Source of the DNA: a virus
IMG/VR virus record: IMGVR_UViG_3300047409_000639
Location: 1-36,846 of that record
Direction: 5' to 3' (one strand)
DNA length: 36,846 bases
Shown: positions 1,818 through 10,783 of the stretch, in pieces
How positions within the stretch are numbered: position 1 is the first letter of the stretch
How the letters are laid out: every line of letters begins with the position of its first letter
The notes under the pieces: model-generated
The model's input: only the letters and a program-made list of their open reading frames with translations
What the model was told of the DNA's origin: nothing
Databases searched by the model: none
Made by a program: the position numbers and the translations under genes

Positions 1818-4800
1818 CTACTCCTTATCGAATTGCGCGATTGAGGTCTCTGCGTCTCGCTTCAACTTCTCGAAGTACGACATGTCGATCTGCAGGTCAT
1901 CCATCTTCTCGGCGATCTCTGCGTCGATCCACAGATAACCCTTTGTCCCGGAGACATGGTGGTACTTCCCCTCGTTCATCCGGTACAGTACTCCACCGCC
2001 CGATGAAACAGGTACAAACCTGCCAGTCCGGCCAAGATGGCGCATGTTACGGAAATCCCGAGAATCCTCAGGAACACTTTCCATGTCAAGGTACATCGTC
2101 CCCTTTGTGACGTTCTTCTTCTCACAGAAGTCGTCGAACACGTGCGGCTCGTGTGAGAAGAGCTCCTTGAACACGTAGGGATGCTGGAATTGAGCGCCCG
2201 TAGCGGACCACTCGTCTCCCTTACGAGTCACGAAGACTGCGTCATTGACAAGGATGAACTCATCGTACGTTGCCTCATGCTCGAAGTCGTACCCGTACTT
2301 CTTGCCGTACTCGATGACGAAATCGATGACGTCCTGATCAGCGCCAGGGATCTTCACCGAATCCGTCTTGATGTGAGCGACGGTGTAGCCCCCCTTCCAG
2401 AGCTGGTGCTTCAGATCGATCATGAAGAGAGCTCCGCGCTTGGCCACGATGTTGTCGCGGTTGCGCAGATCCCGGAAGGGGTTGTCGAACTTGGCCGACG
2501 TCAGACCGTAGACGATGTTGATGGCGATCTTCAGGGCGTAGGCGAGAGTATCCGCAACGTCCTCATCTCCCAGATAGGGTGTGAGTCTTCCATCGAACAT
2601 CTGGCGAGCAGTATCGAAGTCGCGCCTTTTGACTGCAACACGCGCAAGCATGAGATCGTGGAATCTCTGGGTGTAGGGGCCGAAAAGATTGAGATGTACG
2701 ATACTTGCGGGGTGCATAGACGCAACGTCCAGCAACGCGACGTCATGATAATGCCCAGGCTCGGCATACACGTACCCCCCTTCGCCGGGCTCTTCGTCTC
2801 GGTAGAAGGATGCCCCGCTGTCGAAGACGTAGCCGGGGAACTCCTTACTGAGGTCGGTGTACTCGAACTTCTTGTGCGGGAACTTGTCGTCCCCGAAGAT
2901 GATCTTGGCGGTATGACGCTGAGTCGTGTCATTGACCGTGAGCCCACTGAGCTCGGCCAAGATCTGACGGGCCACGAAGTCGCCCTTGCGATCCTCGAAC
3001 ACCGCCTCTGTCGCCTTGACGTCGTTGACGCAATAGGCCACCACCCGAGGCCAGTCCGACTCATCGACCGGCTCATCCCATGGCAAGTCCAGCTCCATGT
3101 GATGGATACCAAGGTCGATCTCGAACTCCTTCAGCCCCTGGCGCTTCGTGCTGAAGTCCCAGATGTCGGCGTACGACAGACTGTAGGCCGCCGCGAAGGT
3201 GGCGTTCTTGTTGTTGTCGACGATCATCTTCTGCGACAGCTTGTACAAGGCCTCAGTGGTGTAGCCCTGACTGGCCGCATAGAGGATGTGGTTGTCGTAA
3301 CGACGGTTGTAGAACCCGACGAGCTTCATCTTGAAGAGCTCCTGCACCTCGTGGGCGCTCGGGTTCACCATCTTCACGACTTCGTCGGAACCTTGGTACT
3401 TCCAACAGATGACAAAGAGGTTGGAGTAGACTTCGACGTCGAAGAAAGCAAGACGAGAATCACCAACCTCTGCCGATGCGTCACTTGTCACCTCCTCCTC
3501 TGACGCGAACTTCATCTGCTGCACCATCTCCAAGCTGGTCTTGGATTGGTGAGTGGAGTTGATAGCGAAAGCCATGATGCGTGAGCGCATGTCCGTGACG
3601 TCGTATTTCATACCGGACTCATACGCCTCTTCGAGGATGTGATGAATGAAATCCACCGAAGGCTTCGTGCCTGGGTGGACCTCCTTCCTCAAGTTTCTCT
3701 CGATCAGCTGACGTAGACCGCGCTCACTCTTGATTGTCTTGTCTGCGAGAACTTTCGCCTCCTTCTGCTTCAGGGGAAGCCCAGACGAAATGTGCGCGAT
3801 CTCGACGTTGTTGCACCGAGAGAGCTTCCGCCTCAGCGAACTGTTACCGGTGTAGACCTTTACTTCTATACCGGGGGCATAAGCCACATCAAGGCTTCCC
3901 ACATCTCCATCGTAGAAGTAGTGGAGGTGGATTCCTTTTCCGGACTTGGAGTACTCGGCGTAGGTGGCGGGCCAAGCACTGGCGGCTTCGAGGTTTCTTT
4001 CGAGGGCTTTGTGGCCATTGAGATCCTTCAGGTCGAAATCAATACAGATGAGATTGTCAGGCACCTTGACCCAGTGCAGCTCCCGCGTGTCAATGTCTGA
4101 AAGTGTGGTCTTCACGTTCGACCACCGCTTTGCGGGAGACTCATCCTCTCCAGCCAACTGGGCCGGATAGGCTGCCAATACCTCATCCAAGAGGGACGTA
4201 TCTTCTTCCATCACAAGGGAGAACACCACACCCGACTCGTCCTTCAGCGGCTGCTTGAACTTGTCGGCGACAAACCCCTTGTAGTAGCTGCGAACCTGAT
4301 CTCCGTTCTCGAGTCGAGCTCGATCCTGGAACTCGTCGAAGTAGTTCCGCAGTTCCTCGCGCATCTTGTACATCGGCAACGGGCGCTCGATGCCTGTCTC
4401 CTGGCAGAATTCCTTATACATTGGGTAGGCCTGAGACAAATATGTGAAATTCTGCTTCTTGAAGACGTCGTAGTACGCCTCGATGAAGTTGAAGAAGATG
4501 TCTGTCTGGAGCATCATCTCGAACGGGCGGTAGCCGCTGTAGTAATTGCGACCCAATGTCTGGTACACCTCAAGGCAGTGATGCGCAATTGCCCCGAGCT
4601 CGAAGTTGATCCTGTCCATCAGCGTGTGATAGTGATTCGTGGGAATCACCACGCCGGTGGGATGGACGTCGATCAGCCTGCGGATGATCCCGGACTTGGC
4701 GTCCGAGATCTTCACCGGCTGATTGGTGCCCATGAACAGCATCGCGTTCACTCGCGCCGTGTAACCTGACTTGTACTTCTCGTTGATCAGCATGTCCTCG

Positions 4801-5546
4801 TGAGCGATGATCGAGTTCAATCGAGTGTTGTCGTCGATCCTGCTCAAGTCACCGTCATGCTGAATCGCCACCAGGGGGTTACCCTTGAACACCTCGGTAG
4901 CGAAGGTAGCATTCGAGCTGCCCAGTGCTCTTCCATCGAAAGATGTAGTATAGCCCTGGAAGACCCGCTCGATAATATTGAGAACGGTTGACTTTCCTGT
5001 TCCCGCAGATCCGTAGAAGACCAAGAATTTCTGGATCTTCTTCGAATCGCCCGCTATAACGGATCCGATCGCCCACTCGATCTTCTCTCTTTCCGAAGGG
5101 GCGTACAAGGTGCTGACCAGCTCATCCCACGCGGTGATCTCACCCGGCTCTATCGCGTAAGGAAGACGACGAGACACGTAGTCTCGCTTCTTCACTTCTG
5201 TGTTGGCGAAGACGATCTTGTTGTTCAACGGCTGGTGATTGTCCTCGACCAACTTCATGTGATTCTGAAACCGGTTCCATGAGTTGGTTCCGGCGTATCT
5301 CATGAAGCTGATGGAGCACGGAGCTTCCTTCTCCCGTGAGAACTTCTTGGCAAAGTCCTCCAACTCCGCGTCCACCAGCCTCGGCACGTCATACGAATCC
5401 TGGGACCAGAGACCTGTCTCCTCATCCCAGATGGCGTAGAAGGACTTCCCCCTGACCATGAGGTCCTTGGAATGCTCCACGATGAAGTCGGGGTAGACTA
5501 CAATCCCTTCCTTCGTGTTCTTGGTAGCAATCCGATAGAAGTCCAT
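1818..5546 (-). CDS. SF3 helicase - primase (AEP-like) - family B DNA polymerase fusion
   Basis: A single 1242-residue frame from ATG 5546. Residues about 165-300 are a D5/P4-type superfamily 3 helicase: Walker A GSAGTGKS (179-186), acidic motif near AIQHDGD (227-233) and motif C FMGTNQP (271-277). Residues about 490-600 look like an archaeo-eukaryotic primase core: ICIDFD (500-505) and SKSGKGIHLHY (533-543). Residues about 700-1160 are a family B polymerase with exonuclease motifs FFDVEVYSN (701-709), GFYNRRYDN (744-752) and YCVND (838-842), then motif A DVASMHP (939-945), motif B KIAINIVYG (1006-1014) and motif C KTDS (1060-1063). It would unwind, prime and copy phage DNA. Catalytic residues appear intact in all three parts. 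Helicase and polymerase calls are firm; the primase call is by motif shape. Confidence 0.9.
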   Translation of the reverse strand: MDFYRIATKNTKEGIVVYPDFIVEHSKDLMVRGKSFYAIWDEETGLWSQDSYDVPRLVDAELEDFAKKFSREKEAPCSISFMRYAGTNSWNRFQNHMKLVEDNHQPLNNKIVFANTEVKKRDYVSRRLPYAIEPGEITAWDELVSTLYAPSEREKIEWAIGSVIAGDSKKIQKFLVFYGSAGTGKSTVLNIIERVFQGYTTSFDGRALGSSNATFATEVFKGNPLVAIQHDGDLSRIDDNTRLNSIIAHEDMLINEKYKSGYTARVNAMLFMGTNQPVKISDAKSGIIRRLIDVHPTGVVIPTNHYHTLMDRINFELGAIAHHCLEVYQTLGRNYYSGYRPFEMMLQTDIFFNFIEAYYDVFKKQNFTYLSQAYPMYKEFCQETGIERPLPMYKMREELRNYFDEFQDRARLENGDQVRSYYKGFVADKFKQPLKDESGVVFSLVMEEDTSLLDEVLAAYPAQLAGEDESPAKRWSNVKTTLSDIDTRELHWVKVPDNLICIDFDLKDLNGHKALERNLEAASAWPATYAEYSKSGKGIHLHYFYDGDVGSLDVAYAPGIEVKVYTGNSSLRRKLSRCNNVEIAHISSGLPLKQKEAKVLADKTIKSERGLRQLIERNLRKEVHPGTKPSVDFIHHILEEAYESGMKYDVTDMRSRIMAFAINSTHQSKTSLEMVQQMKFASEEEVTSDASAEVGDSRLAFFDVEVYSNLFVICWKYQGSDEVVKMVNPSAHEVQELFKMKLVGFYNRRYDNHILYAASQGYTTEALYKLSQKMIVDNNKNATFAAAYSLSYADIWDFSTKRQGLKEFEIDLGIHHMELDLPWDEPVDESDWPRVVAYCVNDVKATEAVFEDRKGDFVARQILAELSGLTVNDTTQRHTAKIIFGDDKFPHKKFEYTDLSKEFPGYVFDSGASFYRDEEPGEGGYVYAEPGHYHDVALLDVASMHPASIVHLNLFGPYTQRFHDLMLARVAVKRRDFDTARQMFDGRLTPYLGDEDVADTLAYALKIAINIVYGLTSAKFDNPFRDLRNRDNIVAKRGALFMIDLKHQLWKGGYTVAHIKTDSVKIPGADQDVIDFVIEYGKKYGYDFEHEATYDEFILVNDAVFVTRKGDEWSATGAQFQHPYVFKELFSHEPHVFDDFCEKKNVTKGTMYLDMESVPEDSRDFRNMRHLGRTGRFVPVSSGGGVLYRMNEGKYHHVSGTKGYLWIDAEIAEKMDDLQIDMSYFEKLKRDAETSIAQFDKE

Positions 5547-9452: not shown

Positions 9453-9655
9453 TACTTGTTCTCCTTGATCTGGAAGACGCAGTACTTGTGCGCGGTCAGG
9501 GGCGGGTCGGTCATGAAACGAACCTCGCCCATGTCCCATCCACGGTAGGCGGCGCCATCGAGTGATGACGCCTCCCGACGAGCGCGCAATTCAGCGATCG
9601 CTGCGCTCTCGTCATCCGTGAACAGGACGTACCTGCGAGTAACCGGTGAGGTCAT
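9452..9655 (-). CDS. Small conserved protein (67 aa), unknown
   Basis: ATG 9655 overlaps the upstream stop as ATGA. The 67 residues start MTSPVTRRYVLFTDDESAA and end FMTDPPLTAHKYCVFQIKEN. A beta-strand-rich start and end around a helix (AAIAELRARREASS) suggest a small folded domain. No motif is recognised. Gene order and overlaps on both sides place it in one operon with the membrane protein at 9652-9906 and the protein at 8883-9452. Confidence 0.65.
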   Translation of the reverse strand: MTSPVTRRYVLFTDDESAAIAELRARREASSLDGAAYRGWDMGEVRFMTDPPLTAHKYCVFQIKENK

Positions 9656-9906
9656 CCGCGGACTGCCGCCTCCTCCACCTGCTCGGCGACCTCCTCGACC
9701 TTCTGGGCGCCCTTGATGACAAGCGGGCGGAAGTACAGCTTGCGGCCGATGATCACGCCGAGCGCGACGCCGGTGGCGGCGATGGCGACCCGCTGGACCA
9801 GCGGGGACATGGTGACGTCGACGCCCAGAGCGGGCTTGGAGCCGTTGAGGTTGACCTCCTCGGCCGTGCCGTCGACGATGCGATCGGACAGGGACTCGTT
9901 GTGCAT
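9652..9906 (-). CDS. Small single-pass membrane protein (84 aa)
   Basis: ATG 9906 follows AAGGAGCAGTA. The first 30 residues are polar; a span at about 36-54 (LVQRVAIAATGVALGVIIG) crosses the membrane, then basic RKLYFR and a coiled acidic helix VEEVAEQVEEAAV near the end. The topology resembles an anchored helical adaptor. Its 5' leader carries the compact RNA structure at 9939-9998. Function unknown. Confidence 0.7.
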   Translation of the reverse strand: MHNESLSDRIVDGTAEEVNLNGSKPALGVDVTMSPLVQRVAIAATGVALGVIIGRKLYFRPLVIKGAQKVEEVAEQVEEAAVRG

Positions 9907-9938
9907 TACTGCTCCTTCTTGATTGAATGAAATATGAT

Positions 9939-9998
9939 GCCGGGATTTCTTCCACAGGCTCCCGGCGGGCCTGCGGGTAGACACTTCTACCCTGGAAG
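9939..9998 (-). ncRNA. Predicted three-way-junction pseudoknot RNA element
   Basis: The 94-base gap between two genes can fold almost without unpaired bases. Stem 1 is CUUCCA (9998-9993) with UGGAAG (9954-9949). Stem 2 is GGGUAG (9992-9987) with CUACCC (9980-9975), loop of 6. Stem 3 is CAGGC (9973-9969) with GCCUG (9959-9955), loop of 9. Seven bases of the stem 3 loop, GCCGGGA (9966-9960), are a perfect complement of UCCCGGC (9945-9939) just downstream, giving a pseudoknot. No U-run follows, so it is not a terminator. It begins 3 bases after one stop codon and ends 32 bases before the next ATG. Folded by eye. Confidence 0.6.
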
Positions 9999-10000
9999 GC

Positions 10001-10783
10001 TTAGTACAGCTTGCTGTAGTCCTGCGTCGGCCCGACCACGTAGTCGAGCACCATGCAAGGACGGTTGTCCGACGACAGAGTTGCCGAGAACACGACCTCG
10101 AGAAGGTTATTGGTGTTCCAGCCCACTTCATCCGAGTGTCGCGTCGGTGCCAGCCCGATGTGCTCGTAGAAAGAACTCAAGCTGGCGTACATGTGATGGA
10201 TGATGTCGTAGTTGACCTTGTTCTCGGCCTGCCGAATCGTCTCCATCGAACTCTGGAAATATCGTCCAGAGATGTTGTCCTTGCACAGCACGTCGCCGTT
10301 GCCGGTGATGATGACCTGCTTGTTCTCGACCGGGTCACGATTGACGCGGTCCTGGGCGATCTCATCACGAATCGCCTGTTCCTTCTTCTCTCCCAGACGC
10401 TCGACGACCTTCTCCTTGTACTCCTGGAAGGAGCGCTCGGAGATTCCATAGGCGGCAGCCAGAGCTGCGGCCTTCTTCTGGTCGATCCGGTTGGCCGTGA
10501 TGATCGAAGCGATCGTCAGGCCCCCCATGCCCATCGGCGGAATGAGTTCCGGCCAGATCAACCGCACCTTCGTTTTGACGTCGAAATCGACCTCGTCGTG
10601 ATCCGGGTGCTCGTTGAAGAAGGCGTCAGCCTCCTCCTGGAGGATCTCGGATGCCTTGAATCCGGCCCGGAACGACAGCACGGCCGTTGAGACGGTGCCC
10701 ACTACGCCGACAGCGGTCAGGAGAACGGACTTGTTCTCATGCGCGTACCGCTGGGCGTCCCTCCACATCTCACTGATGTTCAC
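10001..10783 (-). CDS. DUF6353-like membrane protein, copy 2
   Basis: A 260-residue protein from GTG 10783, overlapping the upstream gene by 14 bases. A first span LLTAVGVVGTVSTAVLSFRAG (21-41), then an acidic loop EEADAFFNEHPDHDEVDFD, a second hydrophobic segment LIPPMGMGGLTIASIITA (about 80-97) and the helix AAALAAAYGISERSFQEYKE (105-124) match the DUF6353 pattern also seen at 6779-7681. The C-terminal domain is soluble. The two copies differ in sequence outside these regions, so the duplication is old or the genes came separately. Function unknown, probably at the cytoplasmic membrane. Confidence 0.7.
   Translation of the reverse strand: MNISEMWRDAQRYAHENKSVLLTAVGVVGTVSTAVLSFRAGFKASEILQEEADAFFNEHPDHDEVDFDVKTKVRLIWPELIPPMGMGGLTIASIITANRIDQKKAAALAAAYGISERSFQEYKEKVVERLGEKKEQAIRDEIAQDRVNRDPVENKQVIITGNGDVLCKDNISGRYFQSSMETIRQAENKVNYDIIHHMYASLSSFYEHIGLAPTRHSDEVGWNTNNLLEVVFSATLSSDNRPCMVLDYVVGPTQDYSKLY

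Follow-up and report, generated by a model that had tools for sequence, protein, structure and literature searches.

Few structured cis-acting RNAs have been described in the operons of tailed phages. Three-way junctions in which a loop pairs with the sequence on the 3' side to form a pseudoknot are the topology of the glutamine (glnA/Downstream-peptide) riboswitches. Among viral RNAs, the flaviviral xrRNAs require their 5'-end nucleotides to be paired with the junction, forming a ring (PMC5760640). In phages, a pseudoknot in the leader of T4 gene 32 nucleates the repression of its own cistron, and a 2010 review regarded the T4-type gene 32 leader as perhaps the only viral pseudoknot in translational autoregulation (PMC3014915). 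The phage putRNA consists of two stem-loops near a promoter; its structural description mentions no pseudoknot (PMC9378689).

Here we consider a knotted RNA of about 60 nt on the minus strand, at 9998-9939, of a 36,846-base uncultured virus record, the whole of which constitutes the window analyzed. Inspection of the sequence recovered every feature that the initial annotation had placed here, all on the minus strand: the four perfect helices within 60 bases (6, 6 and 5 bp plus a 7-bp pseudoknot), each of which was confirmed; the single unpaired junction base, G9974; the 94-nt gap from the stop codon of the DUF6353 gene (10001-10003) to the next ATG (9906-9904); and the two flanking membrane-protein genes, the downstream one being an 84-aa ORF with one hydrophobic stretch. 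We refer to the latter as HNESL after the conserved N-terminus of its product, which has no match in PHROG or Pfam. The parts of the locus are:

10001-10783, minus strand: upstream gene for a DUF6353 phage membrane protein (PF19880, E 8e-77)
9998-9993 / 9954-9949, minus strand: P1, CUUCCA / UGGAAG, 6 bp; CUUCC of the 5' strand is identical in all three members of the family described below
9992-9975, minus strand: P2 hairpin (the variable arm), GGGUAG-AAGUGU-CUACCC, with strands 9992-9987 / 9980-9975, 6 bp
9974, minus strand: junction base G, the sole unpaired base of the junction
9973-9969 / 9959-9955, minus strand: P3, CAGGC / GCCUG, 5 bp
9968-9967, minus strand: loop CC, 5' of the pseudoknot strand; 5 nt longer in L120
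9966-9960, minus strand: pseudoknot 5' strand GCCGGGA, in the P3 loop, pairing with 9945-9939
9948-9946, minus strand: linker AAA, identical in all three members though the first pattern scan did not fix it
9945-9939, minus strand: pseudoknot 3' strand UCCCGGC, 3' of P1, 7 bp
9907-9938, minus strand: A+U-rich leader, 69% A+T, with the Shine-Dalgarno AAGGAG at 9917-9912
9652-9906, minus strand: downstream HNESL gene for an 84-aa small membrane protein, accompanied by the RNA

In this arrangement two bases lead from the 5-bp P3 over the 7-bp helix, no base separates the pseudoknot 5' strand from the 3' strand of P3, and P1 and the AAA linker then follow; in our own judgement this strand geometry is that of a normal H-type pseudoknot.

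Homologues of this RNA were sought by pattern. The first scan, which specified only the pseudoknot strands and the 3' strand of P1, returned 32 contigs, 30 of which are chance matches. The other two, L120 and L124 (the same contigs as L186 and L187, respectively), are true homologues, which also carry the unrequired GCAGGC, GCCTG and AAA, as well as a correctly placed upstream CTTCC. A second scan built on P3 recovered the same two and one chance contig; L017 and L132 were discarded as chance pattern matches and L021 as a spurious protein match. The family thus comprises three members (the window, L120 and L124), all of them uncultured and from a single phage clade. The 41 core bases (P1 5' strand, P3, pseudoknot and AAA linker) are identical without exception across the three. 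In colinear coding regions the members are about 65-79% identical to each other, and the fourfold-degenerate sites of the genes flanking the element and of the large replication gene differ by 41-71%, a range that covers only genes of sure frame (one low value, at ORF 1238-1663, suggests a misassigned frame for that ORF). Outside genes, no three-way identity is longer than the 28-nt stretch GCCGGGAGCCTGTGGAAGAAATCCCGGC. The sequence of P2 is unrelated among the three members, and in L120 there is a 5-nt insertion in the P3 loop. Compensatory base changes, which the initial annotation had named as potential support, are absent: P1, P3 and the pseudoknot are invariant save for one closing pair of P1, and covariation can lend no support because the helices do not vary.

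Such preservation of sequence, beyond what pairing alone would call for, could be viewed as that of a DNA-level site (an operator, or a recombination or packaging site) or of a conserved short peptide rather than of an RNA, and one frame of the window core does read RPAGSLWKKSR. However, none of the frames through the core survives the 5-nt insertion in L120, which eliminates coding conservation; the conserved block coincides with the exact pairing partners (98% of cells paired versus 33-50% when the block is slid); and the block directly precedes a leader with a Shine-Dalgarno sequence. We therefore hold a DNA site or peptide to be improbable. Readthrough of the upstream stop codon was also rejected upon reading the sequences by eye, as the frame is open in the window and closed in both homologues: in L124 it soon meets a UAG (GGA UAG before GCAGGC), and that of L120 closes too.

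The assertion in the initial annotation that these helices are unlikely to have come together by chance holds up. The full descriptor, with perfect helices of 6/6/5/7 bp, was not matched anywhere in 127 Mb of second-order Markov sequence, in which a relaxed 5/5/5/5 descriptor found 28; by our extrapolation, a window would be expected to hold the full descriptor about 1e-4 times at most. As the topology was freely chosen by the reader, this estimate is weakened, and it is the homologues that furnish independent confirmation and settle the point. Chance folding in GC-rich intergenic DNA might draw support from the nested fold of 10010-9930, whose z-score of -3.05 versus dinucleotide shuffles is modest by itself, but in the face of the lack of full-descriptor matches and of the intact core in two homologues, which already refute it, we assign it next to no probability. 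The P2 hairpin has a z-score of -3.8 in the window and is no better than shuffles in both homologues. Comparing the same element in the three members, a rough estimate with an assumed pseudoknot penalty yields approximately -31.7, -28.0 and -28.0 kcal/mol for the pseudoknot versus -28.7, -26.1 and -25.7 kcal/mol for the best nested fold, and the knot would thus be favored in all three. With other segment boundaries that include some flank, the best nested fold is a simple hairpin of the pseudoknot strands, which is compatible with the full knot, the two not being mutually exclusive. The predicted structure hence draws on the improbable fold, the match between the conserved block and the pairing strands, and this rough comparison of energies.

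The genomic context ties the RNA to the gene that follows it. In all three members it begins 1-3 nt past the upstream stop codon, and in L120 and L124 the gene order 3' of it is an HNESL homologue (41-42% identity), the RYVLFTDDE gene and a tail-assembly chaperone. All three contigs carry both the RNA and the HNESL gene, and L002 and L023/L024 from the same clade have neither. In L124, a gene for a 217-aa collagen-like protein (L187 15378-16031) lies exactly between the DUF6353 gene and the RNA, which indicates that the RNA belongs with the downstream gene. Further, over 90 loci that carry a DUF6353 relative have no such RNA 3' of the gene; many of these have short gaps and several have a promoter-like motif. 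The minus strand of the window carries the terminase, portal, protease, tape-measure and tail-chaperone genes, with the HNESL cistron downstream of the tail genes. Among named phages, the nearest relatives of the DUF6353 protein come from Gordonia phages (48%), a sequence affinity that makes an actinobacterial host likely. Several other aspects of these genomes deserve mention. The window encodes two divergent DUF6353 paralogues in one phage (6779-7681 and 10001-10783). At 1818-5546 it encodes a 1242-aa protein with a DUF5906 domain, the C-terminal part of which looks primase/polymerase-like by eye, making it possibly a replication fusion protein. At 9482-9450, where the RYVLFTDDE stop and the tail-chaperone start overlap, all three phages share a 33-nt identity that might be longer than codon constraint needs.

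Taken together, the case for the existence of a conserved RNA is strong and that for its function moderate; at the level of sequence, it is established that the RNA exists, is conserved and is linked to the HNESL gene, and we regard 9998-9939 as very probably a conserved RNA element that functions within the downstream leader.

The statement that the structure is not a terminator is borne out, as no minus-strand terminator was called here and the sequence after the stem is AAAUCCCGGC; the combination of a GC hairpin with a U-run that marks intrinsic terminators is absent from the RNA site. A terminator-like hairpin occurs further downstream at 8555-8525. The terminator-like hairpin AGGAGAACCCACACGGGTTTTCCTTTT is present in two copies in the window (12657-12628 and 12124-12098) and is identical in L186. 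A promoter within the leader was rejected, there being no convincing -35/-10 elements, and the promoter-like motif of the phage group is missing from this gap. This motif, TCGCGnAAAAAnACAnGnCnTGTAATGAGACCC, has six copies on the minus strand of the window ahead of short genes (8868, 12094, 12335, 12625, 12943 and 13376), and is also seen in L186, L187 and the gap after DUF6353 of phages L039, L077, L089 and L099. These signals bear on the possibility of put-like antitermination, wherein the RNA would act on the transcribing RNA polymerase and affect downstream terminators. Its invariant sequence, the tolerance of distance and the terminator-like hairpin at 8555-8525 would be in keeping with this, but the nearest promoter-like motif lies about 2 kb upstream of the RNA and there is no match in Rfam, and we give this mechanism little credence.

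With respect to novelty, the earlier remark that no described phage RNA with this sequence was known is upheld by the absence of the element from Rfam families, named phages and sampled bacterial genomes. In Rfam 15 no family scored above its gathering threshold, and the few matches at E up to 10 were weak, unconvincing and nowhere near those thresholds. Against named phages, blastn queries made of the 98-nt gap or of the 36-nt core gave chance matches only. A pattern scan of GTDB, covering 84,980 bacterial and archaeal species at one genome apiece, gave 46 matches, none with both P1 and the pseudoknot, and a model search of 396 actinobacterial genomes, run without a positive control, recovered none. 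Covariance-model matches in Gordonia phage Kenosha (inside gp38) and in Halopolyspora (which reads as coding) were judged to be chance. This has implications for a further alternative, namely a ligand-binding riboswitch with a pocket at the pseudoknot or junction for a metabolite or ion and control over the downstream gene. The leader position, the invariant core and the three-way junction with its loop-to-3' pseudoknot would all accommodate such a role. Yet, beyond the lack of an Rfam family at gathering score, nearly all of the junction is paired, a 5-nt insertion is tolerated in the loop over the pseudoknot, the expression platform is not conserved, and the gene concerned codes for a phage membrane protein that is non-metabolic, all of which render a riboswitch improbable.

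The proposal that the element regulates the downstream message fares best among the general roles because the RNA goes with the downstream gene, and it is for the mechanism that we infer more than is observed. That three helices should be fixed base by base on both strands points to a partner that reads the sequence itself, a protein being the simplest candidate. Accordingly worded as a model, a three-way junction locked by the 7-bp pseudoknot between a loop and the 3' flank would serve as the leader of the HNESL cistron and act in cis on its message. An invariant face made up of P1, P3, the pseudoknot and AAA would be recognized sequence-specifically, a protein of the phage or the host being the likeliest partner, with P2 and the insertion-tolerant loop pointing away from the contact face. 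Binding might then set the translation or stability of the downstream message via the A+U-rich leader, by analogy with repression from the T4 gene 32 pseudoknot. The leader has an A+T content of 61% in L124; in L120 the A+T-rich part is kept near the Shine-Dalgarno sequence despite an inserted palindrome, and the distance from the RNA to that sequence is about 90 nt greater, a change with which any direct effect on the ribosome-binding site would have to be compatible. The insert itself (L186 2409-2505), some 90 nt long and imperfectly palindromic, separates the RNA from the HNESL start codon and folds into a long hairpin. The HNESL protein is no obvious RNA-binding protein. We judge this explanation as a whole, that of a conserved structured RNA of the HNESL leader bound sequence-specifically and acting on the downstream message, to have about an even chance of being right, and offer the protein-bound operator as its mechanism more tentatively.

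The main rival to such an operator is a nuclease barrier, in which the fold would halt an exonuclease working 5'-3' (in actinobacteria, RNase J), or mark a processing site, enabling HNESL and the cistrons following it to outlive the upstream message; this would be xrRNA-like in action but not necessarily in ancestry. The topology is that of flaviviral xrRNAs, namely a three-way junction plus a pseudoknot from L3 to the downstream sequence, and the bacterial RNase J1 is blocked by an xrRNA in vitro (PMC5760640). The start of the RNA immediately past the upstream stop codon in every member would fit a barrier, as would the fact that several relatives have a promoter-like motif where the RNA would be, as though the downstream gene had to be expressed on its own. 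On the other hand, the complete invariance of the helix sequences exceeds what a mechanical block needs, and in the window the junction, with its single unpaired G, cannot accommodate the pairs between the 5' end and the junction that make the ring. Thus, of the xrRNA-type design advanced in the initial annotation, the three-way junction with its loop-to-3' pseudoknot stands and the ring pairing falls; by that test the element is not an xrRNA, though it could still act as a block. We see a nuclease barrier as possible but doubtful, and its more specific form, an xrRNA-like phage RNA of independent origin that blocks RNase J or marks processing so that the downstream cistrons outlive the upstream message, as unlikely. 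Were a nuclease block to prove true, it would provide a bacterial-virus counterpart of the flaviviral xrRNAs. More generally, a 60-nt element with an exactly defined core that is absent from Rfam presents a ready test of two strategies in DNA phages: xrRNA-like knots that counter host nucleases, or operators of the pseudoknot type that control small membrane proteins.

Finally, the element can be placed relative to the known systems. It shares with the flaviviral xrRNAs the strand order P1-P2-P3, the pairing of the P3 loop just 3' of P1 and a length of about 60 nt, but in the window it is devoid of 5'-end/junction pairs and of ring-defining junction nucleotides, and it sits in the leader of a DNA phage operon. 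With the glutamine riboswitches it has in common the leader position and the topology, but it differs in giving no match to their Rfam covariance models (glnA, Downstream-peptide) and in having no extended unpaired junction for a binding site. Like the HK022 putRNA, it would be a cis-acting phage RNA, of around 70 nt in that case, whereas putRNA is a pair of stem-loops near early promoters that acts on RNA polymerase (PMC9378689). The layout is closest to that of the gene 32 leaders of T4, T2 and RB69: in both, a pseudoknot in a phage mRNA precedes an A+U-rich leader, unstructured and containing the ribosome-binding site, before the start codon, and in both some relatives have the pseudoknot and others do not (PMC3014915). 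The two differ in that the gene here specifies a small membrane protein (HNESL) rather than the ssDNA-binding gp32, and in that the pseudoknot here is built into a three-way junction, with the UUAA repeats being absent.
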